This document shows, piece after piece, positions 11,991 through 40,282 of a stretch of DNA of 64,000 nucleotides. A program made the translations under genes and the position numbers. The DNA comes from Polytrichum commune (Eukaryota; Streptophyta; Polytrichopsida; Polytrichales; Polytrichaceae): positions 12,340,501 to 12,404,500 of the forward strand of contig OX485808.1 of NCBI GenBank assembly GCA_950295325.1, in the 5' to 3' direction. Position 1 is the first letter of the stretch, and each line of letters starts with the position of its first letter. The notes under the pieces are model-generated. The model was not told the DNA's origin, searched no databases, and saw only the letters and a program-made list of their open reading frames with translations.

Positions 11991-12333
11991 TGACCAATTG
12001 CTTACTCTGAGGGCAGAGAACAATGGTCAGGGGGCAATGGAGCCGCAATCCAAGGATCACATTGAGGTCAATGATACCGAGGGATTATTTCCTTTGAAAC
12101 TTCATGTTGCGGAAGAGCTTCGAGCCCAACGTGTTTTTTCGGCTTTGGCCCAAGAGTTTGGGAAGTTGGAGGCCCATAAAATGTTTCCACTTCTATTTCT
12201 TGGTGATACTTCATATGTGGGTAGCTATTTAGCTACACAAACTGATTGTAGTGGAGAGGATACGCATTTGGATTCAAATGCAAATGATGGGGGCAAAGGT
12301 GTTGCCCTCTCCACGGACTAGCAATCACAGGCT
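11991..12333 (+). pseudogene. Linker between methyltransferase and reverse transcriptase
   Basis: The frame stays open to a TAG at 12319 and encodes an acidic, motif-free stretch that joins the end of the methyltransferase domain to the start of the reverse transcriptase. It has no recognisable fold. Because it continues the same reading frame on both sides, it supports a single ancestral polyprotein rather than a separate methyltransferase gene. Confidence 0.5.
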
Positions 12334-13900: not shown

Positions 13901-15285
13901 CCACATATCTCACAATGATGTCGGGATTGGCTGCTGAGATCCTTGTAGAAGAACAAGATGAGGAGGTTGATAAATCTCTCGTTGTTAGTGATGTGTGGGA
14001 AGACCAGGCGGTCTTGCACAAACTTCAACAAGGGATATTTCCTCTTGGACTATCTGCTATGGAGCGAGATAGAGTTAATCACCGGATAACAAGGTTTCGT
14101 TGGGCAAACATCTTGTTATTTCGTGTGTGGCCGAACGGAACGAGGCGTATCGTTCTAAGGCCAGATCAAAGAGCTTCTTTAGTGCAACAAGTGCACAAGG
14201 AGCTTGGACATTTTGGTGTGCGAAGGACACACTCTACGTTGCGCAACCAATATTGGTGGACTGGTATGTATCAATAGGTTGCCACTTATGTTTCTCGATG
14301 TGAAGTATGTGACCGGGTTAGGTCAAGTTTTAATACTTTATCACCTCAACTTCAACCTTTACCTATTATGGGCTTGGGATATCGTTGGTCTTTGGATTTT
14401 GCCGGACCGCTTACTATCACTCCACGTGGCTTCAAGTATGTGCTTGTGATGGTGGAGCATTTTAGTAAGTGGATTGAACTCATGGCTCTTCCCCAAAATT
14501 CCTCAGAATTGGCGGCTATGGCATTTCTTGATCGAGTTTTGGCACGGTTTGGAGTACCTGCAGAGGTGTTGACGGATCAAGGGAGAGAATTTCTTGGATC
14601 TTTCGAAGCTTTGTGTATCAAGGCTTTGATTGATCATCGGACAACTTCCAGAGATCACCCTGAGGCAGATGGCTTAGCTGAACGAGTTGTTCAGACGGTT
14701 AAGCGCGGTTTGCGGAAGTATGGATTGTTTCATAGCAACCATCGCGATTGGGACTTGATATTACCATGGATAGCAATGAGTTATCGTTTCAGCAGGCAAG
14801 CATCTTTGGCATCCTATAGTCCTTACCAACTCTTGTATGGACGGGAACCAATTTTACCTAGCTCGGTGCGAGAGAAATTGGCTCCCGTGGTAAACTTGGA
14901 TGATCCAGATGTTTGGGCTCAATGTCTTCATGACCGAGCAACGTTCTTCCAAAAGGCCATGCCTATGGCTATGGAGAACTTAAATATTGCTCAACATCGT
15001 GATACATTACGGTATGCCCGGATCCGCAGTGGAGCTTATCGACCTCAGGTTCGTAGATTTTCCAAGGGGGATTATGTTTACTTGCAACGGGAGGCGCCTA
15101 CGACATTGGATGTCAAGGCTGGGCGCACGATTTTGCGGGTAAAAGATGTCTTGCCAAGTGGTATATTATTGCTTGAAGGCAAGGATGGACGGGAATGTCG
15201 TGAGCATTCAAAGAATTGTGCTCCATGTCACCTTCCCATCGACGGCTCTGTGCATCCCGAGTTGGCGGTTGTACCACAGGGTCTG
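13901..15285 (+). pseudogene. Integrase of the Ty3/gypsy element
   Basis: The HHCC zinc-binding domain spans about 14200-14320 (HFGVRRTHSTLRNQYWW, then CEVC) and is cut by a TAG at 14275. The DDE core follows in the frame 14368-15453: first Asp in WSLDFAGP (about 14389), second Asp in LTDQGREF (about 14568), Glu in the HPEADGLAE segment (about 14661). The block SPYQLLYGREP is at about 14818. The integrase joins element cDNA to host DNA. Its C-terminal region leads without a break into a PHD finger instead of a chromodomain. Confidence 0.88.
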
Positions 15286-15450
15286 CCTTGTTATGTTTGT
15301 GGAGAAAAGAAAGGAGCCGCAACAATGTTATTGTGCGACCAATATCAACGTGGATGGCACATGGCATGTTTGACACCTCCCCTTTTTTATTCTTCCTTCT
15401 GGCAATTGGGTTTGTCCTCGTTGTCAGAAAGCCTCTCATTCCGTGGCCGT
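15286..15450 (+). pseudogene. C-terminal PHD finger of the integrase (frameshifted)
   Basis: After the integrase comes CYVCGEKKGA, then LLCDQY, then RGWHMACLTPP, which is the first two thirds of a C4HC3 PHD zinc finger. The last third (NWVCPRC) appears in another frame at about 15402-15425, so a frameshift lies in the T-run near 15385. The fourth zinc ligand, normally Cys, is Tyr in this copy. PHD fingers usually read histone H3 tails, so the domain could steer integration. This function is inferred from the family, not shown here. Confidence 0.75.
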
Positions 15451-21034: not shown

Positions 21035-21043
21035 GTCACTCGC
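21035..21043. repeat. Left 9-bp target-site duplication of the MULE
   Basis: GTCACTCGC directly precedes the left terminal inverted repeat and is identical to 39677-39685 directly after the right one. Nine bases is the canonical Mutator-superfamily duplication. One more matching C would allow a 10-bp reading. Confidence 0.8.
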
Positions 21044-21095
21044 GGGAAACTCAAGTATGTGAGCGTAGAGCGGAGAGCGGAGAATGGAGAGCGGA
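21044..21095 (+). repeat. Left terminal inverted repeat of the MULE
   Basis: It starts GGGAAACTCAAG, continues GTATGTGAGCGTAGAGCGG, and contains three GAGCGG boxes. It pairs with 39626-39676 in reverse orientation at about three quarters identity by eye. Confidence 0.78.
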
Positions 21096-21369
21096 AATTT
21101 TAAAATTTGTTGGGTTATTTTAGGAGAAACAATGCCTAATTCCGTGGATTTTATAGATAGTATGTCTTCAATTTGGAGGAAAGGCACCCCATTCCCGTGG
21201 AGATAATAATCGAACATTGTGAGAGGAACAAACGAAACCTATAGGCGTGGAAGATTGTAGATGTTATCAAACATCTTATAGTCTAGGTTTCAAATAGTTT
21301 CATATCAAATTAGGGTTGACGTCATCAATTGAAAACAAATCAACATATGATGAACATATGAGGTAAACC

Positions 21370-21505
21370 TTACCACAAACATTCAAACAATTCAAACCTT
21401 AACACAAAGCATTCAAACCTTAACACAAAGCATTCAAACCTTAATACAAAGCATTCAAACCTCAACACAAAGAATTCAACCTTAATACAAACCATTCAAA
21501 AACAC
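21370..21505 (+). repeat. About six tandem copies of a 22-bp unit
   Basis: The unit reads approximately CATTCAAACCTTAACACAAAG. It lies between the left inverted repeat and the end of the methyltransferase-like gene, where the 3' untranslated region is expected. Confidence 0.85.
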
Positions 21506-21735
21506 TCACAACCTTAGGTTATCTCAAGTACAACTAAACTAGGCAACCTCCAAAGAATATTCAACCCGCACACCCGAACATATCAAGAGAATTGAAACCA
21601 AATACAAACCTAAACTGAATAAGGGATTACACGAGGTTTGGAAAAGGAACATGGAAATCCAACAAACAAACTTATAAATATTTATAGTAAAAAACAAAAC
21701 ATATGGTAGGGAGGTCCGATACACACGAGGAGTAG

Positions 21736-24700
21736 TCAACAACTAGGACTACCATGTCTATCACTATCCTCGCCCTCCTCGGCCTCTATGTCTAGATAAT
21801 CTAATATTAGGTTATTGAAAGGGCGGATGCAAAGAGGAGGTGGGGACGGTGCTTCCGCCAAGAGATTGGCAAGCCCAGCCGCATAGGAAGGGAGCTCGAA
21901 CGTTGTCGAAGGCGAAGAAAACATGTCGGCGGTAAGGACACGAATCGGGCTAGGAAATGAAGCTCTGAACAAACATGACAAGAAAAAAATTACATTAGAC
22001 AATGGCAACAACTTCAAAGCGAGAAGGAAAAAAATGAAAAGAAGAAGTTCGAAGCCAACAACGAACTTACGCACACAGCAAATCAAAGTTGCGCTTCGCC
22101 ATCTTGCGGGGGGGAGGAGCAAAAACCGATCCCCGTTGTGGGGCCACGTGCTGTGAGGTGTGTTCTTGCTCTGCCTCACGCATGGGGAGGAGGAGTGACT
22201 TGAAGATGTCGATGTCCGACTTTAAAGCCACAATATGGCGTTGAATGGAGCGACATGCAAGGACGGAACCTCCTAATACAACCAATTGCGGAAATGTAAG
22301 GAGACGGGAATGAAAGGAAAATGAAACAAGTAGAAAAAAAACAAAAAAAATCTAAAATGAAAAATGAAAAATAAGGAGATTAAGGACATACCAACGCCAC
22401 ATTGCCAATCTAATATAATGTCGTCCTTGTCCGTGAGTGCGGAGAAAAGAATAGAAAAAAAGTCGGCTCGTTTTTCACGAGCACCTCTCCATGGCACTCC
22501 GTCTTCCCTCATAGATTGGTTATTAGCATCAACGAAGCTGTTGAGCCATCCATCTCTCTTAAGATTGTACCCCTTGTCATCAACCTCCGAAGTGCGGACT
22601 CTCAAAACTGACTCATTACGAACGAGGACCTTGATGAAAAACTTGCGAGTCTGGAAGAAATCCGAACCTTAGAATTAGGAATTCTGAAAAACAAGGAAAA
22701 AACAAAATAAAAAACCCAAATGTGAGGAAAGAAAGAAATTACCAATTCGGATGGAGAAGTGGACGACTGAAGGTCGAGGTCATTCATTCCGAACCAGTCT
22801 TCGGCGACGTAGAACTCCTCCGTGTGTGCCCAATTATGAATCGACCTAGATACTTCAGGATCTGCGGCGTGTGCGAAGACTAGGACGCCGTCGTCATGCA
22901 GATTAGCACTAGCAAAGGCAAACAAAACCTCGAAGTAAGAAGGAGATCGAGTGTTCCACTTAGGAACCTCTAAAGGGGAGGCAGATATGTTAGGGACACG
23001 GAGGTTCTCGGGGACATCTGCAAAGAGAAGATCAATCCCTGTGTGAACCTTAGGCTTCGTATTAGGACGAATACGGCCCCTTCCAACATGCGAGGCAAAA
23101 ATTGAAAGAAATTAAAAAAAAAAACATAGATCAAGAATGTGGATTAAACGAAAAAAACATTGAATGTTACACTGACCTTTGTAATAAATTCCTGGATGCG
23201 ACGGTAGGCCGGAGGTTGAACCTTAGTTCGCATGAGGTCCTCTATCAGCTCCCCCATGTCGACATTCTCAATCAAAACGAGAGAAGATGACTTCTCTGAA
23301 GAAGTTGCGGAGGTATCAGGCGCGACGGCCTTCCTCTTGCGAGGAACGGAGGGGAGGGTCACACCGCTATGGGAAGGCGCAGGAACAAGGTCTGGAGCTA
23401 TGGCAGAAGGAGTTGCAGATGGACTACCGACAACAATTGTGGTTGGAGCAGCCGTACGCTGAACGGAGGCCTTAGTGTGAGAACGAGTGGACACCTGACT
23501 GGAGGCCACCCTCTTACCTTTCCCTTTACCCTTTGCAGACCCAACCTCTTTCACAATGGAGGGAGGAGGAGGAATGGGGTCTTCTTCCGGCTCCTCCTCC
23601 AGTGCAATTACCTCCGGGGCAGAGGACACCAAGCTGCTGTAAAGGGATTCCTCTGGTTCGGGAACGAAACCACGTGAACAATCCAAGTACCAGCCACCTG
23701 CGACCAAGTGCGGGTGGGGGAATTTGGTAATCTGCATGAGACTGTATACACACTGACTGTACCTCGTATCGAGCCATTCTTGGAGGAATGACGGCAAAGA
23801 AGAAGAAGGAAAAGCATTCTTGACGACAAGCTCACGATGAATGTACCTGCATAGTATAGGGTATGAGAATACGAAAAATGAAGCAAAAAAAAGAATGGAA
23901 TGAAATAAGGTAAAACAAATCAATATCAAAAAAAGGATTACCGATAAGCAACGCGCTTGATAGCAATGGGGCCTTCTTCAAATTCCAAGAGATCAAGGCC
24001 TTTGACAAATTTTAAATCTCCCTTGTCGTCAAAATGAACAAAAAATGCCTTGTCCCACAAAATCAGCCTCCAATGCTCAACGTAATTGGCAGGTTGGAGA
24101 ATATCCTCCGAGGAACCCCAGTCAATGTCAACATCCGCCTCATTCTCAAATGAAGCAATCTCAGCCTCAACCCCCTTCTCCAACTATGAAAAGAATGAAA
24201 AATAGTTTAGAAACCAGATTCCAAAAGTCATTAAAGAAATCTAAAACTAGGCATTGAAAATACACATATACCAAGCACATTGAGGTTACTGATTTCCACA
24301 TATCAGTTCTAGTAAGCTTGAAAACAGATTCTAGGATTGACTTCATAATTCATTAACCAGCCCCCTGAGGTTCCTGATTTGCACATAGTAGTTCTAGGAA
24401 ACCCGAACCTAGACTCTAGGATTGACTTCATAATTAATGAAACAGCCATTGAGGTTCCCGATTTCCACATATTAGTTGTAGTAAGCCTGAAACTAGACTC
24501 TAGGATTGACTACATAATCAAATATCAAGCCCCTTGAGGTCCCTGATTTCCACATATTAGTTCTAGTAAGCCTGAAAACAGACTATAGGATTGACTTCAT
24601 AATTCATTAACCAGCCCCTTGAGGTTCCTGATTTCCACATATTTGTTCTAGTAAGCCCGAAACTAGAGTCTAGGATTGACTTAATTATTCATTAACCAAC

Positions 24701-27700
24701 CACTTGAGTAGCATGATTTCCACATATTAGTTCTAATAAGCATGAAACATGACACAAGGCATGACTTCAAAATTCATTAACCAACCCCTAGGGGTTCCTG
24801 ATTTCCCCACCATAGTCCAATATTGGGCCTAGACACCACACATTCTAACACCCTCTCGGAACCAAGAGGGTGGCCAACTATGTATAAACCAGAATCCATA
24901 TTCTAAAACTCATTCTAAAAATCTAAGACTAGTCCTTCAAAGTCCACATTAACAAGCACATGGAGGTTCCTGATTTACACATATTAGTTCTAGTAAGCAT
25001 GAAACTAGACTCTAGGAGTGACTTTATAATCAAATATCAAGCCCCTTGAGGTCCCTGATTTCCACATTATTAGCTCGTATAGGCCAGAAACTTTACTCAA
25101 GGCTTGAATTCAAAACTCCTAGACCAGCCCCTTGGGGTTCCTCATTTCCACATATTAGTTCTAATTGGCCAGAAACTTGACTCAATGCTTGACTTCATAA
25201 TCAAATATCAAGCCCCTTAAGGTCCCTCATTTCCATATATTAGCTCTTATAGGCCAGAAACTTTACTCAAGGCTTGAATTAAAAACTCCTAGACCAGCCC
25301 CTTGGGTTCCTGATTTCCCCACAATTTTCCTATATTGGGCCTAGGCACTCCACTTTCTGTCACCCTCTCGGAACCGAGAGGGTACCGAGCTATGTCTAAA
25401 CCTGATACCATTCACTAATCTCATTCCAGAATTCTTAGACTAGTCCTACAAAGTCCACATTTTGACACTCTCTCGGAACAGAGAGGGTGCCCAATTATGG
25501 ATAATCCTTATACCATATTCTAAATCTCAATCCACAAATTCAATACTAGTCTTTCAAAGTCCACATTTTGACAAGCTCTCGGAACCGAGAGGGTGCCCAA
25601 CTATGTGTAAACCTGAAACCATATTCTAAAATTCCTTACAGAAATCTAAAATTTGAAATAAAAAACGAAGAACAAACATCATTTCGGAAACCTCGAAAAG
25701 AGAAAGGATCAAAGAGAGGAAAAAAAATTGTAGATGCACCTGAGCCCAGAATGAAGCTTTGTTGAGCCAGTTTTCAAGGACTTTCTCCCTAAGAGGGAGA
25801 GACGATGGAAATCTATTCTTATCTTTGACATCGGCAGGGGAGTTCCACCAACGAAGCCACTTGGCCTTGAAGTGGGCATCGACATGTGCAGTGGCCACCT
25901 TTTGAAGTTTTTCGATTGTCATATCAGTGACGAGGAAGGTGGAGAAATGACGGTCAATCTGCCACATACAACAGTGAAAAGGAAGAAAGAGATATGAAGC
26001 ACGACAAGATTAATAGGAGAATGAAAGACTAAATAAAAAAAACAAAGATAGGAGAGGCACCTCGTTGAAGAAATCATCACCGTTGTCCTTGTGGGCAACG
26101 GAAATGAACTTCTCAAAGTTCCGAGAACGAATGTTTTTGATCAACCTATCCTGGGCTTTTGTCATAGCCTCCCAAATTTCAGTCGAAGATCTCTGAGCCT
26201 CGGGAGTGGCCTCATGGTATAACCTTGCGGCCGTATCAGCCGCGTTTGATATCTCCCTCTGAAACAAAAAGAAAAGCATAAGGAACGCACATAAACATGG
26301 GAGAAGCAAAGTCAAGGAAAAATCACCCAACATTTACCTTGTATAAAAATTTGACGAAGACGTCTAATGTCAAGGGATACCAAGTAGGATTCTTCTCCAT
26401 CTTGGACTCACACATCTTGTAGTCCGCAACGGAAAGGAGGTCTTTAAACTCCTCTAGCCTCATCTTCCCAAACGTCCGAATACGAAGTAACTTGGCGGGT
26501 AGGTTGTTCTTAACATGGTCATGTTCCGTGGACCTAAACAAATAAAATGTTAGAGGATAAAATACAAAAAAAAAAAGATAAGCTCAAGAACATCAAATAT
26601 CGAACTCACCAGTTGATGTCATTCATAACATTAAGGAAGATGGCTGTGCAATTTCTTGGATCCACCAGAATACAATCAGTAGAGATATGCCAATCTTTGT
26701 CCAACGGGTGATGATTGTTAATGTGCCTCCACCAAGCTGTCAACCGATGGTTCCCCTCCCACACGTAGAATATTTTGCCAACAAAGCTAGCAAGGTCGGA
26801 GTCTCCTTGGAGAATGGCATCAAACTCTACATTGGCCTCCTGCCATAATGGACTCCAAGAGGCCTTGATGTCATCGGATACATCAAGGCCCTCATCGAGG
26901 TTGTTGTATGGAGAGACGTACATAGCTCGGTCACCATCACGATAACCCATCACGAACTCATTCTCCAAACGAGCAACATCAACGCCGTTGATAGGACGAA
27001 CAAGAGGAAGACAACGCAAGCGACACAATGGAATAGGGAAACGAGATTTCCCAAGAGGTTTGAATCGAACCCGCTGAATCACGGTGTTGGAATCTTGTTT
27101 ATGCGATCTCCGTACCAAAAGCTCTGTCTCAACCGGGTTCGACTCATCTAGAGGTTTTAGGTAGTCGGATACAACCGGAGCATCAATCTAAAAGGAAAGA
27201 GAAGCACAACATAAGAAGACAACACAAAAACCAAACATACAAGAAGCCGAATAAAACATTGACACACAAAAGAAAACCTCCAAAAGTTCAACGAATCAAA
27301 CACCTCTCCCTGTGAGACGTTATCAAGAGCCGCAACGAGAGCCTCAGGAGGCGAAAAATGAACATTGACATCCTCCATTAAATGCACCCGTGATACAGTA
27401 AGAGCCAAAGCCTGCGATGCCTGCATGCACAATATACATACCATGAAAATGTGACTAGATCCTAACCTGGAGTACATATATTAATCAACAGCCCATTGGA
27501 AGTTGTGATTATCCCACATTAACTCCAAAAACGAGAGGGTGCCAATGTCCCATGGAACTGAATCTAGGACTAGTACTTGAAAGTCCACATTCTGTCACCC
27601 TCTCGGAACCGAGAGGGTGCCCAACTATGTATAAACCAAAATCCATATAATAGAACTCAATCCAGAAATTCAAGACTAGTCCTCCATAGTGGGTGCCCAA

Positions 27701-30700
27701 CTATGTATAAACCTGATACCAGATTCTTAATGTCTTTCAAGAAATTCAAGACTAGTCCTTCAAAGTCACATTAGCAAGCACATGGAGGTTCCTGATTTCC
27801 ACATATTAGTTCTAATAGGCCAGAAACTTGACTCAAGGCTTGACTTCATAATCAAATATCATGCCCCTTGAGGTCCCTGATTTCCACATATTACCTCTTA
27901 TAGGCCAGAAACTTGACTCAAGGCTTGACTTCAAAACTCATAGACCAGCCCCTTGGGGTTCGTGATTTCCCCACCATATTCCTATATTGTGACTACACAC
28001 TCCACTTTCTGTCACCCTCTCGGAACCGAGAGGGTGCGGAATATATCTACACCTGATACCATATTCTAATTCTCATTCCAGAATTCTTATACTAGTCCTT
28101 CAAAGTCCACATTTTGACACCCTCTCGGAACCGAGAGGGTGCCAAACTATGTATAAACCAGAATCCATATTATAGAACTCAATCCAGAAATTCAAGACTA
28201 GTCCTCCATAGTCCACATTTTGACACCCTCTCGGAACTGAGAGGGTGCCCAACTATGTATAACTCTGATACCATATTCTAAATTTCAATCCAGAAATTCA
28301 AGACTAGTATTTCAAAGTCCACATTTGGACACCCTCTCGGAACCGAGAGGGTGCACAACTATGTGTAAACCCGAAACCATATTCTAAATTTCAATCAAGA
28401 AATTCAAGACTAGTCCTCCAAAGTTCACATTTGGACACCCTCTCGGAACCGAGAGGGTGCCCAACTATGGATAATCCTGATACCAGATTCTAAATGTCAT
28501 TCCAGAAATTCAAGACTAGTCCTTCAAAGTCCACATTAAAAAGCACATGGAGGTTCCTGATTTCCACATATTAGTTCTAGTAAGCCTGAAACTATACTCT
28601 AGGCTTGACTTCATAATCAAATATCATGCCCCTTGAGGTCCCTGGTTTCCACATATTACCTCTTATAGGCCAGAAACTTGTCTCAATGCATGACTTCAAA
28701 ATTCATAGACCAGCCCCTTGGGGTTCGTGATTTCCCCACCATATTCCTACATTGTGCCTAGACACTCCACTTTATGTCACCCTCTCGGAACCGAGAGGGT
28801 GCCCAACTATGTATAACCCTGATACCATATTCTAAATTTCAATCCAGAAATTCAAGACTAGTCTTTCAAAGTCCACATTTGGACACCCTCTCGGATCCGA
28901 GAGGGTGCACAACTATGTATAAACCCGAAATCATATTCTAAAATTCAATCAAGAAATTCAAGACTAGTCCTCCAAAGTTCACATTTGGACACCCTCTCGG
29001 AACCGAGAGGGTGCCCAACTATGGATAATCCTGATACCAGATTCTAAATGTCATTCCAAAAATTCAAGACTAGTCCTTCAAAGTCCACATTAGCAAGCAC
29101 ATGGAGGTTCCCAATATGATGTGGGGATCCCACCCCTCCACCACCCTCTCGGATCCGAGAGGGTCCCTACCAAGACGCCCCTAGAAACTTTAGACCATCA
29201 TAACTTTCTCATACGTTCTTTGATTTTGACAAATGACCCCTTCATCTTCATCTACGTTTCTTGTACATGCCAATGGACTACTCATTTGCCACATTCCGGC
29301 AAGTATTGAGGAAGTTATCCCTATTGAAAGCTAGGTCCAAAGCAAAATCTGATGTGGGGATCCTACACCTCCACCACCCTCTCGGATCCAAGAGGGTGTC
29401 TATGTGACATAGCATGCATACAAACACATACTCTCACATATCATATATCCAAAGAAATACCTCACACCTCCTTCAAAGCTAGGTCCCAAAGCAAAATATG
29501 ATGTGGGATCCTACACCTCCACCACCCTCTCGGATCCGAGAGGGTTTCTATGTGACATATCATGTACACAAACATATACTCTCACATATCATATATCCAA
29601 AGAAATACCTCACACATCCTTCAAAACTAGATCCGAAAGCAAAATATGATGTGGGGATCCCACTCCTCCACCACCCTCTCGGATCCGAGAGGGTGTCTAT
29701 GTGATATATCATGTACACAAACATATACTCTCACATATCATATACCCAAAGAAATACCTCACACATCCTTCAAACCTAGATCCGAAAGCAAAATATGATG
29801 TGGGGATTCCACTCCTCCACCACCCTCTCGGATCCGAGAGGGTGTCTATGTGATATATCATGTACACAAACATATACTCTCACATATCATATACCCAAAG
29901 AAATACCTCACACATCCTTCAAACCTAGATCCGAAAGCAAAATATGATGTGGGGATTCCACTCCTCCACCACCCTCTCGGATCCGAGAGGGTGTCTATGT
30001 GACATATCATGTACACAAACACATACTCTCACATATCATATACCCAAAGAAATACCTCACACCTCCTTCAAAGCTAGGTCTCAAAGCAAAATATGATGTG
30101 AGGATCCCACCCCTCCACCACCCTCTCGGATCCGAGAGGGTTTCTATGCGACATATCATGTATACAAACATATACTCTCACATATCATATACCCAAAGAA
30201 ATACCTCACACATCCTTCAAACCTAGATCCGAAAGCAAAATATGATGTGGGGATCCCACTCCTCCACCACCCTCTCGGATCCGAGAGGGTGTCTATGTGA
30301 CATATCATGTATACAAACACATACTCTCACATATCATATACCCAAAGAAATACCTCACACCTCCTTCAAAGCTAGGTCCCAAAGCAAAATATGATGTGGG
30401 GATCCTACACCTCCACCACCCTCTCGGATCCAAGAGGGTGTCTATGTGACATATCAAGTACACAAACATATATTCTCACATTTCATATAGCCAAAGAAAT
30501 ACCTCACACATCCTTCAAACCTAGATCCGAAAGCAAAATATGATGTGGGGATCCCACCCCTCCACTACCCTCTCGGATCTGAGAGGGTCCCTACCAAGAA
30601 GCCCCTAGAAACTTCAGACCATCATAACTTTGTCATACATTCTTCGATTTTGACAAATGACCCCTTCATCTTCATCTACGTTTCTTGTACATGCCAATGG

Positions 30701-33700
30701 ACTACTCATTTGCCACATTCAGGCAAGTATTGAGGAAGTTATGCCTATTGAAAGCTAGGTCCCAAAGCAAAATCTGATGTGGGGATCCTACACCTCCACC
30801 ACCCTCTCGGATCCGAGAGGGTGTCTATGTGACATATCATGAACACAAACATATATTCTCACATTTCATATACCCAAAGAAATACCTCACACATCCTTCA
30901 AACCTAGATCCGAAAGCAAAATATGATGTGAGGATCCCACTCCTCCACCACCCTCTCGGATCTGAGAGGGTGTCTATGTGACATATCATGTACACAAACA
31001 CATACTCTCACATATCATATACCCAAAGAAATACCTGACACCTCCTTCAAAGCTAGGTCCCAAAGCAAAATATGATGTGGGGATCCCACCCCTCCACCAC
31101 CCTCTCGGATCCGAGAGGGTTTCTATGCGACATATCATGTACACAAACATATACTCTCACATATCATATACCCAAAGAAATACCTCACACATCCTTCAAA
31201 ACTAGATCCCAAAGCAAAATATGATGTGGGGATCCCACCCCTCCACCACCCTCTCGGATCTGAGAGGGTCCCTACCAAGAAGCACCTAGAAACTTCAGAC
31301 CATCATAACTTTGTCATACATTCTCCGATTTTGACAAATGACCCCTCCATCTTCATTTACATAACCAACACTTGCAAGATTGACCTTAGAATCTAGTCCA
31401 CATGGGCCTTCCCCATGACCCTCGCGGATCCGAGAGGGTCCTTTCTTTGCGTCGGACGTATGCACCTCAAGCTTGCCAAACATGGAAGGTTTTGTAAGAT
31501 ACTCCCTACCAAAGTCATTTGAATTAAAGGATAACTGTATTACCCTAGTAAAAATTTCCGCCCTATCCCTAATCCCTTCGGCTACTTGCCTTAAATTTAA
31601 AAATTGGCTTGGTAAATATCCTAAAATATGATGCCTCAACCGGCTATATTGCCGATATTTTCTCATTTCAACCGGTCAATTAGTTGTAATTGGCCAGAAA
31701 CTTGACTCAATGCTTGACTTCATAATCAAATATCAAGCCCCTTAAGGTCCCTCATTTCCATATATTAGGTCTTATAGGCCAGAAACTTTACTCAAGGCTT
31801 GAATTCAAAACTCCTAGACCAGCTCCTTTGGTTCCTGATATCCCCACCATTTTCCTATATTGGGCCTAGGCACTCCACTTTCTATCACCCTCTCGGAACC
31901 GAGAGGGTGCAGAGCTATGTCTAAACCTGATACCATTTCCTAAATCTCATTCCAGCATTCTTATACTAGTCCTACAAAGTCCACATTTTGACACCCTCTC
32001 GGAACCGAGAGGGTGCCCAACTATGGAAAATCCTTATACCATATTCTAAATGTCATTCGAGAAATTCAAGACTAGTCCTTCAAAGTCCACATTTTCAATC
32101 ACATGGAGGTCCCCGATTTCCACATATTAGTTCTAGTAAGCATGAAACTAGACTCTAGGAGTGACTTTATAATCAAATATCAAGCCCCTTGAGGTCCTTG
32201 ATTTCCACATTAGTAGCTCTTATAGGCCAGAAGTTTTACTCAAGGCTTGACTTCAAAACTCCTAGACCAGCCCCTTGGGGTTCCTCATTTCCACATATTA
32301 GTTCTAATTGGCCAGAAACTTGACTCAAGACTTGACTTCATAATCAAGTATCAAGCCCCTTGAGGTCCCTGATTGCCACATATTAGTTCTAATAGGCCAT
32401 AAACTTGACTCAAGGCTTTACTTAAAAACTCATAGACCAGCCCCTCTGGGTTCCTGATTTCCCCACTATTTTCCTATATTGGGCCTAGGCACTCCACTTT
32501 CTGTCACCCTCTCGGAACCGAGAGGGTGCAGAGCTATGTCTAAACCTGATACCATTTCCTAAATCTCATTCCAACATTCTTATACTAGTCCTACAAAGTC
32601 CACATTTTGACACCCTCTCGGTTCCGAGAGGGTGCCCAACTATGGATAATCCTTATACCATATTCTAAACTTCAATCCAGAAATTGTATACTAGTCTTTC
32701 AAAGTCCACATTAGCAAGCACATGTAGGTTCTTGATTTCCACATATTAGCCTTAGTAAGCCTCTTACTAGACTATAGAATTTACTTAATAATCAAATATG
32801 AAGCCCCTTGAAAACCATATTTTCCACATATTATGTCTAGTAAGCATTAAACTAGACTCTAGGAGTGACTTCATAATCAAAAATCAAGCCCCTGAAGGTC
32901 CCTGATTTCCCCATATTAGCTCTTATAGGCCAGAAATTTTACTCAAGGCTTGACTTCAAAACTCCTAGACCAGCCCCTTGGGGTTCCTCATTTCCACATA
33001 TTAGTTCTAATTGGCCAGAAACTTGACTCAAGACTTGACTTCATAATCAAGTATCAAGCCCCTTGAGGTCCCTAATTGCCACATATTAGTTCTAATAGGC
33101 CAGAAGCTTGACTCAAGGCTTGACTTCAAAACTCCTAGACCAGCCCCTTGGGGTTCCTCATTTCCACATATTAGTTCTAATTGGCCAGAGACTTGACTCA
33201 AGACTTGACTTCATAATCAAGTATCAAGCCTCTTGAGGTCCCTGATTGCCACATATTAGTTCTAATAGGCCAGAAACGTGACTCAAGCCTTGACTTCAAA
33301 ACTCCTAGACCAGCCCCTTGTGGTTCTTGATTTCCCCACCATATTCCTAAATTGTTCCTAGACACTCCACTTTCTGTCACCCTCTCGGGTGCCGAACTAT
33401 GTCTACACCTGATACCATCTTCTAAATCTCATTCCAGAAATCTCAAACTCACTTGTTCTTGAGAAGCCTTGGCCTTCGCCTTGGCCTTCGCCTTGGCCTT
33501 CGAACATGGGGATGCCTTCCTCCTTGCCTCAGCTGACCCTTCCTCCGAACTGCCGAATTCTCTCCTCCCTCCGACCTACCCTAACTCCCTCCGAACTATC
33601 TCCTCCCTCCTACCCTAACTCCCTCCGAACTCTACTAGGTCTGCGGCTAGGGTTTCCTCTCCCACTTGGTCCCCGCCTAGTCGAATGCCGAGAGCCTACT

Positions 33701-34351
33701 TGCGGAGGACACTATGACATTAACCTACATTTTCTTTGACTCTCTCGGTTCCGAGAGGGTCCGTTCCTATACTACCCTCTTTCATGATGAACTCATTTAA
33801 ACAAAATGAGAACTTCCTACAACTACCTATCTGGTTAACATTCATTTTATGGGTCATTTTCCACATCCAGTCAACATGCACTTTATGAAGATTCACATTA
33901 CATACCTCAATTTCAAAATGTCATTTTCCATATAACCAAAATGTATATCTGACCCTCGTGCATCAAACCCTAAACCCATACTTACATTGCTTATTGTGTC
34001 TTCTTTTGTCTCCTCCTCCGATCCGCTCATGTCGGAATTGCTTCGTTGCTCGCTCTCTCCCATCGATGGTTCGCGTGATTCACTGTGCTCCCGTTCTTCC
34101 TCTATCTGTTCCAGCTCCTCGTTCCTGCTATATGTCCCTATCTCGTCCTCTCCGCCCGTTTTGCTCAAATCTGTTGGTGGCTCACTTCCCTGAGTACAAG
34201 TTTGCTCCTTCTTCCTAAGTTCTCTCCGTCGCCTCTGTTTAGAATTGCTAAAACTCGTGCCTCCCTTTCTTTTCTTCCTCTTTCTTCCAGGATCGGCAGT
34301 GGAGACTTGACTATTTCCTAGTTCCTTCATGTGTGCGTCCCGGTTTGCCAA
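21736..34351 (-). CDS. ParB-like / N-4/N-6 DNA methyltransferase-like protein, 12 exons
   Basis: Exons on the minus strand: 34351-33986, 27420-27304, 27187-26610, 26533-26338, 26258-26061, 25958-25740, 24183-23942, 23846-23177, 23048-22743, 22650-22392, 22272-22071, 21964-21736. All junctions use GT and AG and keep phase, giving about 1,193 residues. The acceptor at 23048 is the least certain, and exon 1 is assigned by its GTAAGT donor, phase and position. Residues 1-122 are charged with a basic nuclear-localisation-like cluster. Residues about 220-350 resemble ParB/sulfiredoxin domains (E-G-N-H-R at 305-309). Residues about 720-800 are low-complexity with a KGKGKGK run. Residues about 865-1115 fit the permuted order of N-4/N-6 methyltransferases: LLFADVPEN where D-P-P-Y is expected (about 869-877), WRGAREKRADFF, then the SAM-binding LDWQCGVGGSV (about 1044-1054). 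The degenerate catalytic motif makes activity uncertain. Some phage proteins join the same two domains. Confidence 0.72.
24250..25640. repeat. Repeat-packed intron 6 of the methyltransferase-like gene
   Basis: Six or more units of roughly 117 bp lie head to tail, built on CCTTGAGGTTCCTGATTTCC, ACATATTAGTTCTAGTAAGC and GATTGACTTCATAATCAA. Four palindromes with the core CTCGGAACCGAGAG or a variant follow at about 24851, 25362, 25465 and 25573. The same unit families fill intron 1, so two introns of one gene share one repeat family. Confidence 0.88.
27421..33985. repeat. Palindrome-bearing tandem array in intron 1
   Basis: About 30 copies of an almost perfect 22-bp palindrome with core CCTCTCGGATCCGAGAGG, or the same with AA or TT in the centre, are spread over 6.5 kb. 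One class has the AA centre and recurs every 105-106 bp (28014, 28119, 28224, 28330, 28436). A second class has the fully symmetric AT centre and recurs every 148-150 bp (29671, 29820, 29969, 30119, 30269, 30417). Between them lie palindrome-free units of about 117 bp shared with intron 6. The palindrome is more constant than the spacers around it. A last copy with a TT centre lies at about 33740, some 600 bp before the first exon. I see no exon inside the array. Confidence 0.9.
31375..31690. repeat. Unrelated insert interrupting the palindrome array
   Basis: The tandem pattern stops at about 31375 and resumes at about 31690. The insert carries one altered palindrome (CCTCGCGGATCCGAGAGG at about 31418) and ends with CAACCGGCTAT and TTTCAACCGGTCAATT. 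These resemble the CCGGTT-rich dispersed repeat at 1685 and 55762. A minus-strand open frame crosses it (31666-31295) but shows no splice signals that fit the gene. Confidence 0.5.
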
Positions 34352-34654
34352 TACTCGTCTCTCTCCTATCCTCTTCTATTAGGGCATCGCACTCACATAA
34401 TAACTCGTTCCTTTGCTTGTATTGTTCTTTATATTGCCAGTGCTTGAGGGTTAGGGTTTCCCTATTTCAGGAAGCCGTCCCATTTTTTCCCTTTTTGGCA
34501 TCCTTTCCCTATTCTTTTTATATAAACATTACTTCTACGTCTTCTGTTCCTTCGGTGATGGACATGGTGTCATCACAACGTTTGTCTTCACCATTCTTCT
34601 CCTATATAAATCTTTGCATCTTTGTTCATTTACGTTTGTATTTTCTCTGCCTTC
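34352..34654. promoter_or_regulatory. Shared bidirectional promoter of the two MULE genes
   Basis: Only about 300 bp separate the minus-strand start at 34351 from the transposase start. On the plus strand TATATAAA lies at 34603-34610, about 45 bp before the preferred ATG at 34655. Another TATATAAA lies at about 34517. Because transcription would begin about 30 bp after the proximal TATA box, the upstream ATG at 34622 is unlikely to be used. Confidence 0.55.
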
Positions 34655-37600
34655 ATGTCTTCTACCTCAATGGCCGAAATTCGTTCTCATGGCATCGGCG
34701 TCCCTATTCTCTTCCCCATTGATGCACAGGGTATTGTTGTTGTCTCGGAGCGTCATCTTTGCATTAGGTTCTCTCTTCAAGCTGATACAGTATGGGTAGA
34801 GCGTGAGATCTTCGATCCTGATACTGGATTGCTCGTTCATACCTTCCATGAGTCCTCCAAGCTAACTGACAATGGCAATGTGTGGGAGCTTGGCGCTGGA
34901 CAGTATAGGGTTGTTGGCTGGCCAAATTCTGAGATGAGAGTGGCAACAAAACTCCTTGCTCCTCTTCGATCTTCCACTGCTGACTTTAGCACACCTCTGG
35001 TAATAAGTGTCAAGACCGAGCCTGACATAGAGAATGTTGTAGACTTGTCTGATTCTTCGACTGAAGATGTATCTGTGAAGAAGGTTGCTGTTCATGATTC
35101 CCCTTCTTTGTTTCCCTCTGATTCCTTTGTAACGCCTTCTCCTTCTCGCTCTGTGCCTTTATCTCCTTCGGTCCCGTCTACGTCTAAACCTCCACCAGTG
35201 CATAAGGTTGCTGTTCATGATTCCCCTTCTTTGTTTCCCTCTGATTCCTTTGTAACGCCTTCTCCTTCTCGCTATGCGCCTTTATCTCCTTCGGTACCGT
35301 CTACGTCCAAACCTCCACCACCTATTGTTCAATGTCTTCGTCGTCTTGGTTCTATACCCGGTAGTAAAAGTGTCCTCAAGAAAATAGATTACGATAAAAT
35401 CAAAATCCAAGAGGTTAATCACCTTCCCCCTCGTTTCGATGGTACCCAGTTATTTGTCCTCCCTGCACCAGAAGTCTCTTCATCTCAATCCAGGGCCAAG
35501 TCCATGGACGGCATGGACAAGCAATATGATGGCCATGTTTGGACGAGAACGCAAACCACCAACATCACAAACGACGTTGGCCTTGTATTTCGTTCCTCTA
35601 CCTGTGTTGGCCATCTCCAATGCCAAAACCCTACTTGTGATTACCTTCAACGCGCCCATCGTATCTCTCAGGTCAACGACATGGAATTTGATGGTTTCAC
35701 TACTCAGCCTTTCCCTCTCTCTGGCATTGTGCCATCCGGATCTACTCTTGTGTGCAGGATCTGCAAACAACCTCCCAAATGCATTGCACTCTGCGAGGCG
35801 AAAATTTTCTACGTCCATGGGAAGAATTTCTCCCAAAGAGCCTGCATTCATATCGGAACTCATCAACATCCCGTGAAGGTTGGAGACTGCAGACACAGTC
35901 GGAAGCGCATCAATGCTCTTCTCGAGGAGCACGTTGAGCGTACGCCTCAAGCCATGCACAGCAAGATCGTCCTTGAAGCCAGCAAGGACATTGTTGGTGA
36001 GTTCCTCCTTTCCGAGGATAGTGACAAACATCGTCTCCTCTCCCTAAAGGAGCTCGAACCTGTGTTTGAGAGTTGTAGAGAGTTGAATTCCCCAAACCTT
36101 CGTTCTAAGGTTACCTCTTTCAAATTTTTGCGGAGGTTCGGTGTTATGGATGGCATCGCTAAGCTCCGAGGCGTTAGCAATTGGGCCTACATCCAACGGA
36201 ACCAATTCCCAGGACAAGGTGACGATGCTGACAAGGTGTTCGTCTTCAAGATGTCGGAGGTTGGTCCTGGAAGCGGTGTGGATTTGGTTCGTCGGATGCA
36301 ACCGGGTGGGGACCTTGAGAACGCCTGGATTATGTCCGATCACGTCAAGCGGGTCAAAGGGTGGACCACCATGGCCGCTCATGTGTATGATGGGACTTAT
36401 CAACGGGTCATGACCATTTCATGTTGTGATTTCCAATCGGAGGATAAGGATGCCCAAGTGCTCTTCTGGCAGAACCTCAACCACGTCATGGCCCGCCACG
36501 GTATCCCGCATCCAACGTTCATTGGCTTCATGGCGGACAGTGCGCAAGCAAATTGGAACGCTGTGCGCATTGTGTATGGTTCAGGAGATCCCAAAATTCC
36601 AATGGAGGGCCGTGAGCGTACTTGTTTTTTTCATTGGAAACAGTCGCTCGAGAAACATACAAAATCATACATAAAGCATGAGTTGCAAGACCAACATAGA
36701 CACCTTTGCCTTCAATATCGCAATGCGTCCTCTATGGCAGAGGCGGAGACTAGGTATCTAGCTATCAAGGCTTGGTGGGCATCATCGAATTGTACAAGTA
36801 AGGACGGTCTCAAACACCTCCAGCTCTGGCTTGCTTTCTGGCACTTCCGCTACCTTCAATGGGGTGGTTTCATGGAACTGGTACATCCCCTTCATGCTTC
36901 ATTATTCTTTTTTCCTGGATTTAGTTTCCTCTCTTTGTGCTCCCTCTAATACTCCCTCTGCACTCTCCAATCAGGAAAAAGTTCTGACTCAAGACCAGTT
37001 GGCCGAGATGCCGTCGTGCAATCTTGCGGAGTCCGTCCACAACAAGTGGCTTCAGGCATCGGGCAACAAGGGTGGAGATTTATACGTGGCTACGATGGAC
37101 GATTACATTCGCGCCTTCCTACAAGTTGTTGCATACTACACATTCCTTAAAGGTGGTATTGGCGGAGATGGTCCAAGCAAAGAAGAACTCAAGCTCAGGG
37201 GTGCTCAACGTCGAGCTCAGCGTACTGGCGACCCCACAGTGTTGCAGAAGGTCTTGCTCGACATGCCCGGTGGGGAAGAGTTTTGCACTCGCGATCTCCA
37301 CCTTGAGGGCGCCGAGGTGTTTAGATCGCAGAAGCGAAGACCAGACACTCCAATTGGTGATGATGGCGAGACCCACCGTCCCGATACCGTGAACTTCTCT
37401 CGCCCTCCCCCCGGTAAGCGAATCACTCGCTCTCAACCTGCATCACTGCCTACTATCATTGAGGAGTCTTCCCCCTCTATACAAGAGGTTCAAGTGCCTT
37501 CACCTGCAGGACTTGGTTTCCAGCGTGTCACCGCCGTGCAAGAAACCAAAGTAGATGTCTCTCTTTGGCATATTGCCCGCATATCCTATACCTCTGGGAA

Positions 37601-38201
37601 GTCTTGTTGGGCTAATCATGCGGGCACGAAAAAACAATGCACCGCAAGAATCGTCACCAATAACAAGAGCGTCCCTGCGCCCACCTACACCGGTATGTGG
37701 CATCATTACAAACTCCAATCTATGAAGCGCACGGATTTCGTCTTCTGCCCGGATGACATAGAGCGTTGCGTAAAGGGCCCTCGTCGGAAATGGTTCATGC
37801 CGTTCTCTGATGGTCAAGAGAAACCTCCCATTCCCCCAATTTGGCCCGTCAAGATTGGTACCAACCTCACCCGTTCGGAGATCTTCGCCCTTGAGAACGC
37901 ATGTTTTCAACTCCCACCAAAGGAGCGCATCTCACCGACTCAACTTTTCACCAACTCCGCTCCCCCCCTGGATATGTCTGGAATCCGTATTCCGGAATTC
38001 CCAGACTTCATCCCTCCGACAAGATTGTCCAAGGTTGTTCGGCGATGCACCAGCGCACCTTCGGCAAAGCAGAGGCAGATGGTTGCCTCTACTGAAGCTA
38101 TGCATGGTACTGTTCTGAAGTTAACTATGATCCCTCAACCGGGATTTGGCTGCATTATCTCACTGCAGTCCAAGTCAGAACCCCAACCCCCCATATACTA
38201 G
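34655..38201 (+). CDS. MULE-type DDE transposase with GCM-like zinc-binding region
   Basis: Two exons, 34655-36880 and 36975-38201, encode about 1,150 residues; the 94-bp intron has GTACAT and AATCAG borders and keeps the frame. Residues about 315-405 hold cysteines and histidines spaced as in GCM/WRKY-like zinc domains (TCVGHLQC, C-x4-C, CRICKQ, then ACIHIGTHQHP), suited to binding the element ends. The catalytic core follows: D579 in Y-D-G-T-Y, D628 in MADSAQAN, and a C-x2-H pair at C657 and H660 (CFFHW), characteristic of Mutator transposases. The third acidic residue may be the Glu in NLAESVHNKW at the start of exon 2. Residues about 143-224 hold a 41-residue direct duplication. A translation start at 34622 would add 11 residues. 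It should cut and paste the 18.6-kb element. Confidence 0.82.
35081..35326 (+). repeat. In-frame 123-bp tandem duplication in the transposase gene
   Basis: The segment beginning AAGGTTGCTGTTCATGATTC at 35081 recurs at 35204 with very few differences. At 123 bp (41 codons) it preserves the frame and duplicates a Ser/Pro-rich linker. The near identity of the copies indicates a recent event. Confidence 0.95.
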
Positions 38202-38710
38202 GTGACAGTGAGTTCTTATCCAGAGTGCAATTGCGCGAACTTTGTGGATATGATTTCCAAGTTCAGCCGCAAACGCAATTCTTATCTCAATTGTAAGCAT
38301 TTGTATTACATCTTCATCAAGGTTTCTAATTTAGATCCAGAAGTGAATTTGTTCATTCACGCCCCAACATTTAGCTTCAATGAAGTCAAACTCATCCTCG
38401 AAGGGGGTCTCTTGACACAACCTACTTCTTAGAATTCATATCTGTCTACCTATACATTGTGCCCTAATAGATGTACCGATTGTGGACATCATGTATATTC
38501 ATAAGTGTTTGCTATAATAAAGATGATCTGATGGATTCTTATTTATTCCATTTAAAATGTTTTATTACAGTACAAAATTGTCAAGTGACCTCTAGTTCAA
38601 ATTGGAGGTGCTACCTTTGTCTATCATATCTACTTCCGTTTTGCAATTCTTCTATATGTATCATCGTCCCTTCTTGATGGAGGTGGGCCCGGCCGAAACA
38701 AATCCATGTA

Positions 38711-39148
38711 TTAGACCGTTTTATCCTTCAGTCGATCCTTCAATGGAAGATGATGCGGCTCACTTCCTCTCATCCTTTGCCGAAACGACATAGACTTTGA
38801 AGATTCCCCTACTTCAGTCACCTCATCATCCATGTTCGTCGTATTCTCTTCATTCACAACAGCGACTTCATTCACACCAGCGTCCTTCTCCAGCACATCA
38901 AAATGCCACCTAACTTTTTTTGTGTTTTGTTTCTGCTCCTCCTGCATCCTCCACCTCCGGGCTTGTGTAGACTGCAAAAATGGAGTGAGGTCGTAATCAT
39001 CACTACATTGATTTCCAGCACGTATGTCACGTTCCGGCGATGGAATAAAAGGAACATCGGGATCTCCTAGACTTCTAATTTCATTTTCCCATCCTAGGCC
39101 AACAAACGTTTTTCTCTCCTCTCCCATTGTGTGCATGCGTCTATACAA
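38711..39148 (-). CDS. Small hypothetical protein of the MULE
   Basis: An open frame of 145 residues converges on the transposase gene and ends about 500 bp before the right inverted repeat. The product is hydrophilic, with alternating acidic and basic stretches (RRWRMQEEQKQ, SFRQRMRG). It has no membrane segment and no motif I recognise. It may be an accessory product, as the second gene is in maize MuDR elements, or a chance frame. No TATA box stands out. Confidence 0.35.
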   Translation of the reverse strand: MYRRMHTMGEERKTFVGLGWENEIRSLGDPDVPFIPSPERDIRAGNQCSDDYDLTPFLQSTQARRWRMQEEQKQNTKKVRWHFDVLEKDAGVNEVAVVNEENTTNMDDEVTEVGESSKSMSFRQRMRGSEPHHLPLKDRLKDKTV

Positions 39149-39625
39149 GACTCTAACTTATGTCCTAATATATATTGAGTTCGAAGATAATGTCTTCGAC
39201 CACAAACAATAATTGTTTGACTCACACATAGGACAAAGACAAAAGTAATAGAATCAAATCGGAGCAAGTTGGCCGACCTTTATATTTTTATTGACTCATT
39301 CTTCAATTATACAAACTTCGATATGCTTATTTTTGTTTGTTCTTTCCATGGATCATCATTGATGTTAATCATATACTTATACGTTTTATTTTAATGCTAT
39401 TTCATTTTAGCACTTCCCGGTTCCGAAATGTAATGAGACCATTTCAAATATAGGGCCTTGTGAGTTAGATTTGAACCTATACATTCCACGGAAATAGGTC
39501 AATATTTTTTTAATTAGTAAATTCTAGAATATTCGAAGCATATTCCAGTCTATTTTTAAAATCTAAATTTGGTCTAAGAAGTTTGCTAAATTTAATCACT
39601 CTCTGCTATCCGCTCTCCACATCAC

Positions 39626-39676
39626 CGCTCTAAGCTCTTCGCTCCCCGCTCTACGCACACATACAAGTGTCGTCCC
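39626..39676 (-). repeat. Right terminal inverted repeat of the MULE
   Basis: Read inward it begins GGGACGACACTTGTATGTGT and continues GCGTAGAGCGGGGAGCG, matching the left end with one indel and scattered changes. Confidence 0.78.
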
Positions 39677-39685
39677 GTCACTCGC
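39677..39685. repeat. Right 9-bp target-site duplication of the MULE
   Basis: GTCACTCGC, identical to 21035-21043. Confidence 0.8.
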
Positions 39686-39708
39686 ATAAGGTGTCTTCTT
39701 AAAACTTA

Positions 39709-40282
39709 GGGCCTCTTCACACTATTATGGCCGTCCAAGTCGAGAGGCCGTGGGATCGATTGGCCAAACTTTGTTGAGAGTCCAAAGAAATGGGCTTAAT
39801 ATAGCCAATAAAATATAAGAGTTGGAGCCTTTGATTGGGTATAGTGTGAATCTTCCAGAGGCCAAGCCCAAAATCCAAACCTTTGGTCATGCACTCCCAT
39901 GGCCTTTTGACTTGAATGGTCATAGTATGAAGCCTCCAAAGGCCAAGTCCAAAGAAAGAACAAGCATCCCACTTTATTCCCTGCCCAAAACAACTCCTCC
40001 AATCTAACGGCCAAGATCTTGTTAGTTTTTTATTTTTTTATGGGAAAAAATCGACGGCCTCTCGACCATAGTTTGGGTTTTCATTCCTGTCCGACCTAAA
40101 CTTCCTTTGAGAAACTATCGCCTTGGTCAAAAAGTAATGCCATGTAGGCAATTTGAAGAGCGACGGCCTTTGGACTTTGGCCTCTAGTGTGAAGGGTTGA
40201 GAGGCCAAATCCTTGGTTTCTTGCAATCTGATTGGTGGAAATCGACAGCCTCTTGACCTTCAGCCATAGTGTGAAGTGGCCC
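39709..40282. mobile_element. Tourist-like MITE (PIF/Harbinger type)
   Basis: The ends read GGGCCTCTTCACACTA on the left and, inverted, GGGCCACTTCACACTA on the right, over 574 bp. TTA stands on both sides (39706-39708 and 40283-40285), the 3-bp duplication expected for PIF/Harbinger elements. Subterminal boxes such as GAGAGGCCG repeat inside. There is no coding capacity. It inserted 23 bp outside the right duplication of the MULE. Confidence 0.85.

Follow-up and report, generated by a model that had tools for sequence, protein, structure and literature searches.

The element and its two genes

The window analyzed here is a 64-kb stretch of the Polytrichum commune genome (G000:C6:12340501-12404500; the genome comprises 408 Mb in 64 contigs), and the feature under study is a giant DNA transposon of 18,633 bp lying within it, which carries a transposase gene resembling those of Mutator-like elements (MULEs) and, in divergent orientation, an accessory gene whose product has a ParB-like motif and a methyltransferase-like end. 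What is new here, and was overlooked in the original prediction made from the letters of this DNA, is that the introns of the accessory gene hold arrays of palindromes whose class follows the ParB-like exon.

The original prediction had claimed one mobile unit with related terminal inverted repeats (TIRs) and an identical 9-bp duplication, a claim with which the ends, the duplication, the empty site and the sibling copies all agree (table 1). The element starts with GGGAAACTC and ends, on the other strand, with GGGACGACAC; the left end reads GGGAAACTCAAGTATGTGAGCGTAGAGCGG and the right end, reverse-complemented, GGGACGACACTTGTATGTGTGCGTAGAGCGG, with GTCACTCGC bordering both and imperfect TIRs of about 50 bp. 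The original prediction had also proposed searching the genome for an empty site and for other copies, using the ends and both proteins, and each search was answered positively. Queried with 400 bp of joined flanks, the genome returned a nearly full-length match with 96% identity across the junction (G000:C6:4115562-4115953), in which a single GTCACTCGC lies in uninterrupted sequence and 433 of 450 bases are identical to the flanks, while neither of two tested terminal-repeat strings is present. Since this site has one GTCACTCGC and lacks the TIR strings, the 18,633-bp piece was inserted as one unit: the element moves as one piece. An assembly artefact was considered and set aside, for the sibling copies and the empty site speak against it. 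The right flank (39685-39885) is a repeat found at many places, with 86-88% identity in those among the matches listed, and the insertion therefore occurred beside or inside another element.

Because genome searches score the best candidates only, all the counts given here are lower bounds. A 30-base TIR pattern, searched with up to three mismatches in the whole genome, gave 181 matches on the plus and 170 on the minus strand (351 in total; reversed-pattern control, 0), many of which form plus/minus pairs. Ten such pairs, 16.1 to 19.4 kb apart, were fetched, and by hand reading of their termini eight have an exact 9-bp direct duplication, which is lacking in the pairs L007/L008 and L015/L016; L1, an eleventh element of about 12.6 kb, has CTCACTCCC on either side, also read by hand. 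The family is young. The F3 subfamily has a second copy at C2:54223000 with its own duplication, GTGTAAATC, and, outside the arrays, 99.0% and 99.3% identity to F3 over 7,965 and 7,354 columns, and a search with the 112-aa exon e8 protein of F3 gave full protein identity at 8 of the 150 listed loci, F3 included. Exon e5 of the F3 accessory gene is interrupted by an in-frame stop; the C2 copy has no stop in 460 residues from e2 to e6, except in the first codon, before the shifted acceptor.

The transposase gene starts at 34655 on the plus strand and has two exons encoding 1,150 aa, and at least 64 transposase loci were scored in the genome. Its MULE identity, asserted in the original prediction, holds in part. 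The 8-11, usually 9-bp duplication of MULEs is found in the window, in L1 and in the eight pairs mentioned above, the TIRs are present and a D..D..CxxH..E order can be traced by eye: D139, D188, C217 and H220 (numbering of that alignment) are invariant in seven of seven copies, and a stretch at the start of exon 2, which includes NLAESVHNKW, looks similar to the E-containing motif in the genome's canonical MULEs, which seem to have the order and the E-[GS]-x-H motif in common with this transposase. Unlike those elements, which match the Pfam model PF10551 at 142 places with E values up to 0.001, this transposase has no detectable profile similarity, besides its giant carrier and second gene. 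None of the 142 places lies at it, no Pfam family matches it at E 10, HHalign against two canonical MULEs of the genome gives 17.5 versus 17.9 to 20.2 for four controls, and the profile of its core finds nothing credible in the PDB. We call it MULE-like because the duplication and the motif order fit while the profile test fails. Exon 1 contains a 123-bp direct duplication (35081-35320), and against a transposase query with one copy of it, the match falls in two pieces in the window and at three further loci of the same subfamily.

The accessory gene runs on the minus strand from 34330 to 21736, in 12 exons encoding a product of 1,199 aa, in which a basic N-terminus is followed by exon e2, carrying the ParB-like GNHR motif, by a middle part and by the methyltransferase-like end. 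The start codons of the two genes lie about 325 bp apart. The central divergent gene pair of the original prediction is thus divergent, with introns in phase, but not central, as the genes span almost the whole element. All 11 introns keep phase, all donors are GT and 10 of 11 acceptors are AG. In F3 and L1, with 46-72% protein identity in exons e2 to e10, the same GT/AG sites mark most exon borders; the exceptions are the starts of e2 and e11, shifted in both copies, and e6 in L1. Exon u is poorly alignable in F3 and L1, which lack e1, and the decayed copy I1 has more border exceptions. The ParB-like half (e2-e5) gives ratios of nonsynonymous to synonymous substitution rates (dN/dS) of 0.20 (window-J3), 0.09 (window-A7), 0.08 (J3-A7) and 0.10 (F3-L1), the methyltransferase exons e8-e10 give 0.21 (F3-L1), and comparisons with decayed I1 give 0.17 to 0.53 in e2-e5: the accessory gene is under purifying selection. 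It also travels with the transposase. Among the matches listed (150 e2 loci), 48 of the 64 transposase loci have e2 within 30 kb, all 48 in divergent orientation, and 16 have no e2 partner, which may lie outside the matches listed; at 39 loci e2 lies within 15 kb, against 0.7 expected by chance.

Table 1. Features of the element, in positions of the 64-kb window
Feature	Position	Strand	Remarks
Whole element	21044..39676		18,633 bp; TIRs, 9-bp duplication, empty site
Target-site duplication, left copy GTCACTCGC	21035..21043	+	From sequence; one copy in empty site
Target-site duplication, right copy GTCACTCGC	39677..39685	+	From sequence
Left terminal inverted repeat GGGAAACTCAAGTATG...	21044..21093	+	Inner border approximate
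Right terminal inverted repeat GGGACGACACTTGTATG... on minus strand	39627..39676	-	Inner border approximate
Exon e11	21736..21964	-	Includes stop
Exon e10	22071..22272	-	S-adenosylmethionine (SAM) motif I; DWQCGVGGSVLAC spans e9/e10 junction
Exon e9	22392..22650	-	Accessory gene
Exon e8	22743..23087	-	Methyltransferase motif IV region, FADVPEN
Exon e7	23177..23846	-	Accessory gene
Exon e6	23942..24183	-	Accessory gene
Second array, e5/e6 intron	25361..25595		2 of 24 palindromes
Exon e5	25740..25958	-	Accessory gene
Exon e4	26061..26258	-	Accessory gene
Exon e3	26338..26533	-	Accessory gene
Exon e2	26610..27187	-	ParB-like part, VWEGNHRLTAWW
Exon e1	27304..27420	-	Present in B7 and J3 only, of six relatives
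Intron 1 array	27596..33760		22 of 24 CTCTCGGNNCCGAGAG palindromes: 21 in 27600-32630, one at 33742; tandem-repeat units of differing sequence
Exon u	33986..34330	-	Start codon, basic N-terminus
Transposase exon 1	34655..36880	+	D..D..CxxH of presumed catalytic core; Cys/His-rich N-terminal part
Transposase exon 2	36975..38201	+	NLAESVHNKW motif; stop included

Palindrome arrays and the ParB-like exon

Tandem repeats fill the long intron 1 of the accessory gene, and it is here that most palindromes of the window element are found. Across the family these sites measure 22-24 bp, fall into several classes and lie in accessory-gene introns. CTCTCGGNNCCGAGAG occurs 24 times in the window element, mostly as the 24-bp palindrome CACCCTCTCGGNNCCGAGAGGGTG, 19 times in B7 and 26 times in J3; F3, I1 and L1 have no CTCTCGGNNCCGAGAG and carry GAGGCCTCGGATCCGAGGCCTC in its place. 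Genome-wide, the perfect forms number 752 for CACCCTCTCGGNNCCGAGAGGGTG and 1,903 for GAGGCCTCGGATCCGAGGCCTC, versus 0 for reversed controls, and in a hand count of the first 50 listed places per form (all on contig C1) 49 were near listed family parts and one was alone. A class found in A7 has a 27-base unit present 826 times in the genome (control, 0). Sequence conservation extends no further than about 11 bases from the centre in each direction, the inner 12 bases of the palindrome being fixed by the search itself and the outer ones free, and the surrounding repeat units differ. With an ungapped 60% cut-off, 207 extracts around sites of one class and 98 of the other fall into 34 and 14 backbones; truly unrelated units are fewer, because this cut-off also splits variants differing by indels.

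Palindrome class tracks the ParB-like exon; it does not track the methyltransferase exon or the transposase. For this comparison, e2 and 1.5 kb upstream were fetched for 40 loci, and seven long copies were added to give 47 rows. W-type dyads occur at 19 of the 32 loci whose e2 is at least 75% identical to the window and at none of the eight loci with 61-65% identity, and F-type dyads at seven of the latter eight and at none of the former 32; once the seven long copies are included, the counts become 22/36 versus 0/11 for the W-type and 0/36 versus 10/11 for the F-type. Counts of 6-base half-sites come out as expected in 33 of 36 and 9 of 11 rows, with L051 and I1 going the other way and L059, L068 and L078 giving ties or none; since they part the two large classes less cleanly, dyads were used for classing. 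Site classes were assigned by the analyst, leaving 7 of 47 rows unclassed (L051, L059, L060, L062, L063, L067 and L068), and L073 was put in the GAGGCC class by its core alone. On the e2 tree, five classes on 40 rows need four changes, which is the minimum, against a mean of 20.3 after shuffling. Three of the unclassed rows are doubtful: L062 has seven dyads of W-type whose outer arms differ, L060 has near-dyads and the dyad of L063 is a variant. When they are added, L060 in the GACCC class and L062 and L063 each in a class of its own, the resulting seven classes need six changes, again the minimum.

The other parts of the element behave differently. On the e8 tree (8 labelled of 23 rows) the CACCC class is split over two clades with 100/100 support. 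On the transposase tree (seven rows), a single GAGGCC clade of F3, I1 and L1 is rejected (approximately unbiased test, p-AU 5.7e-75), L1 being placed with the window, B7 and J3; the three classes together need no more than the minimum number of changes there (2), and the discordance comes from the clade test alone. Moreover, 8 of the 40 loci are mosaics (L043, L045, L047, L048, L052, L055, L056 and L057) that combine a W-like e2 and W-type dyads, just one dyad in L047, with an F3-like e8 (87-96%) lying 4-7 kb downstream on the same strand, from which distance and strand we read that both exons belong to one element. Between the window and F3, synonymous divergence (dS) is saturated in e2-e5, above 2 in e6-e10 and 0.24 in the transposase. 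Because of this contrast and the discordance of the trees, we conclude that deeply diverged accessory modules and their sites ride on close transposase units.

Readings of the accessory protein and its sites

What kind of protein, then, goes with these sites? The original prediction of a ParB-like/methyltransferase-like gene stands better for its second half than for its first. Searches of the accessory protein with Pfam, PHROGs and NCBIfam returned weak matches of methyltransferase type and scattered chance matches only. At the C-terminus, each library's best match is a methyltransferase (weak E values, 5e-4 to 0.04), a tail protein following lower at 0.34 in PHROGs: phrog_18293 (methyltransferase) is matched by nine of nine members (best E 5e-4), phrog_3008 (DNA methyltransferase) by five of nine (best 0.013) and Pfam N6_N4_Mtase by two of nine (best 0.15); the solved structure of DpnA is matched at 0.039, the next being an unrelated phosphatase at 0.68, and every one of nine phage-record matches (six phages, E 0.01 to 0.4) carries a methylase annotation. 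The motifs follow the β-class order, motif IV before SAM motif I (DWQCGVGGS..AC). Judged by its sequence, the C-terminus is a distant relative of the amino-DNA-methyltransferases. In motif IV, 19 of 23 copies have D[VI]PE and the other four NVPE, DVPG, DILE and YIPE; DPP(Y/F/W) is found in none of the 23, and they lack the β-class catalytic motif (D/N/S)PP(Y/F/W). The aromatic residue of motif IV normally holds the flipped base. The proposal that the second protein alters DNA modification is accordingly doubtful, because motif IV is D[VI]PE instead of DPPY.

The ParB-likeness is one of motif: the GNHR motif in e2, corresponding to GxxR of the P box, has invariant G and N and at least 90% conserved H and R in 40 copies, and together with the order of boxes it was recognized by eye, with no profile confirming it. 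Pfam matched 0 of 40 members of this part, PHROGs gave only six families without description (best E 0.057) and the PDB none; HHalign of e2 against nine phage ParB-like proteins scored 16.6 versus a shuffled maximum of 15.2 (8 shuffles), with its best local match on GNHR.

The sites resemble operators of a dimeric DNA-binding protein and are located in the accessory gene's own introns; that their sequence changes in step with the protein suggests that the element recognizes its own copies. In the reading that we favour, to which we give about an even chance, the element would be a giant autonomous MULE-like DNA transposon composed of a mobility unit (TIRs and transposase) and a self-recognition unit with an anti-silencing outcome, the latter consisting of the accessory protein and its arrayed palindromic sites. 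Binding itself we regard as quite probable: the N-terminal half, probably dimeric, would bind the palindromes of its own element and those of same-class siblings, close to the start region shared by both genes. Less certainly, the bound protein may keep this start region from silencing, as VANC does in the VANDAL elements of Arabidopsis, with a methyltransferase-like domain that would mainly bind SAM or contact DNA rather than act as an ordinary base methylase. The accessory protein could thus mark its own kind of element and keep such elements expressible. A bolder version, which we consider doubtful, is a parS-like system in which the ParB-like protein would load at its own palindromes and spread, the methyltransferase fold serving as a non-catalytic reader; each lineage would keep only its own copies active, and exchange of the specificity half, independent of the methyltransferase half and the transposase, would allow several recognition classes to co-exist in one genome.

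This evidence needs to be qualified by several points that weigh against self-recognition. Linkage is the chief difficulty: because the arrays adjoin e2, it could by itself give part or all of the covariation. The shuffle test asks only about the clustering of labels, which near-copies alone can produce, and the two largest classes represent one deep split on the e2 tree. No clear site class was found in the 1.5 kb looked at for L051, L059, L067 and L068 (4 of 40 loci), and the class of A7, L066 and L070 consists of direct half-sites rather than palindromes (in A7, 51 point one way and 0 the other). In the accessory protein no helix-turn-helix or other DNA-binding domain was recognized; AlphaFold models reach confidence scores (pLDDT) of 36 for the ParB-like exon (40 rows) and 43 for the transposase core (seven rows), both too low to support a fold. 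The observed/expected CpG ratio around the sites, tried as a marker of protected sites, is inconsistent, 0.22 in the window versus 0.59 in F3, and there is no consistent sign of methylation, since depletion is strong in the former and not in the latter. Lastly, the acceptor before e8 is not AG in the window copy, although it is in B7, F3 and L1, and the window compared with its near sister B7 gives dN/dS of 1.06 in e2-e5 and 0.69 in e6-e7; the missing acceptor and these ratios imply that the window copy may no longer make the full protein.

Among the alternatives, an active N6-adenine or N4-cytosine methyltransferase, targeted to the palindromes by the ParB-like half and marking the element's own DNA as suggested for Ectocarpus Sola1 (PMC12477816, as far as its available text goes), would agree with the β-class order, the SAM motif I, the weak homology to DpnA/CcrM-like enzymes and the GATC or GAAC at the centre of many palindromes. 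We nevertheless judge it unlikely, given that D[VI]PE replaces DPP(Y/F/W), with Glu in place of the aromatic residue, and that no fixed target base is evident because the palindrome centre varies (AA/TT/AT and others). It is improbable, too, that the palindromes are selfish or neutral satellite DNA expanded in introns, their covariation reflecting physical linkage only. Tandem repeats do expand and contract, as seen in the 28 versus 23 sites of two copies that are 99% identical, and e1 and e2 are the nearest coding exons; yet one palindrome recurs in clearly different repeat units (for example those of periods 106 and 149 in the window), conserved over its own ±11 bp or so, which plain tandem duplication does not give.

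Transposition sites, acting as enhancers or in synapsis for a transposase helped, in the manner of MuB, by the accessory protein and with silencing uninvolved, would account for the recurrence of arrays in most sampled elements, and giant elements may need help in joining distant ends. We rate this as hardly probable, for the class follows e2 while the transposase tree is discordant, the low transposase dS between the window and F3 stands against the far higher values in the accessory gene, and all 24 palindromes of the window are internal. Chance capture of a host fragment as in Pack-MULEs, although gene capture is common in MULEs (PMC6446971, in the text available), was set aside as highly improbable in view of the sibling copies and the empty site, the up to 12 exons with conserved splice sites, at least 150 e2 copies, the purifying selection, the fixed divergent order and the presence of the transposase, which is absent beside the captured fragment of a Pack-MULE, the searches behind this having listed the best candidates and not been aimed at a separate host homologue.

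Genomic surroundings and known systems

Elsewhere in the window, a Gypsy-type retrotransposon occupies 8162-15450 on the plus strand, with reverse transcriptase, RNase H and integrase above the cut-off and protease and PHD below it; within it, the open reading frame (ORF) 10829-11922 is C5-cytosine-methyltransferase-like (PF00145, E 0.0042, below the cut-off; GWPCQ by eye), to be compared with the DNMT-carrying Gypsy retrotransposons described for a charophyte (PMC5890265, in the text available). A PIF1-like helicase ORF at 2766-3945 on the plus strand (PF05970, 4.8e-12 in 2766-3440) is perhaps a Helitron remnant, and the window contains no tRNA and no Rfam family. In the wider genome, I1 (L031/L032, C1:68373200-68392700) has an insert of about 5 kb within transposase exon 2, ends without matching duplication and several stops in the accessory gene, and is probably a dead copy. 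The arm G000:C4:41.5-59.1 Mb holds 44 of the 150 listed e2 copies, against about 6.5 expected by length, 20 of the 44 having an internal stop (hand count), and is possibly a region where old copies escape purging.

The original prediction knew of no described MULE with this content, and in the open-access papers searched we likewise saw neither a ParB-methyltransferase protein in a MULE nor target sites or covariation for such a protein. The kind of accessory protein is nonetheless already known, because ParB-methyltransferase proteins have been reported in giant algal transposons: according to the accessible text of PMC12477816, Sola1-1_Ec32 of Ectocarpus is a 21.5-kb transposon with a 1,104-aa ParB-like and N4/N6-methyltransferase protein, similar proteins are cited for green and red algae, and their function, binding and modifying their own element, is a guess. 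By description, both are giant DNA transposons with an accessory protein on the strand opposite to the transposase and with ParB-like and amino-methyltransferase parts, the former a motif only in our case; Sola1-1_Ec32 differs in belonging to another transposase superfamily, and in that text neither target arrays nor site classes nor loss of the catalytic motif are mentioned for it. The same order of a ParB start and a methyltransferase end exists in phage and prophage proteins (PMC12704722, in its available part) such as that of Javan638, which has 418 aa and no introns, versus 1,199 aa here and a ParB part without significant profile match. DNA- or histone-modification genes are also aboard TET/JBP-carrying fungal DNA transposons and oomycete MuDR-type elements with a SET histone methyltransferase (PMC12730594), as well as the charophyte Gypsy elements; these enzymes are unrelated, and the available texts mention no arrayed cognate sites for them. 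As for MULEs in general, the overview consulted in part (PMC6446971) describes second ORFs of other kinds, and the Pack-MULEs of Jiang et al. 2004 do not exceed 7 kb according to the accessible text of PMC6431247.

The parallel closest to the proposed function is found in the VANDALs of Arabidopsis, for which the available texts of PMC5735166 and PMC10398659 report that the motifs of VANC lie in tandem repeats of introns and upstream regions, co-evolve with the protein and lose methylation. The present element is likewise MULE-like and has a short motif arrayed in tandem repeats of its non-coding DNA that diverges with the protein. As far as those texts go, it differs in having an accessory protein without Pfam match, palindromes of 22-24 bp versus VANC motifs of 8-9 bp, a methyltransferase-like C-terminus, TIRs and copies of 12.6-19.4 kb. 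The natural exon mosaics indicate which half of the protein goes with the site, and the question is rendered directly testable by the family as a whole, which is large, was recently active and offers candidate sites, several classes and a conserved departure from the catalytic motif. If self-recognition is true, the family would join the VANC case as a second and seemingly independent example of a transposon recognizing its own DNA to escape silencing.

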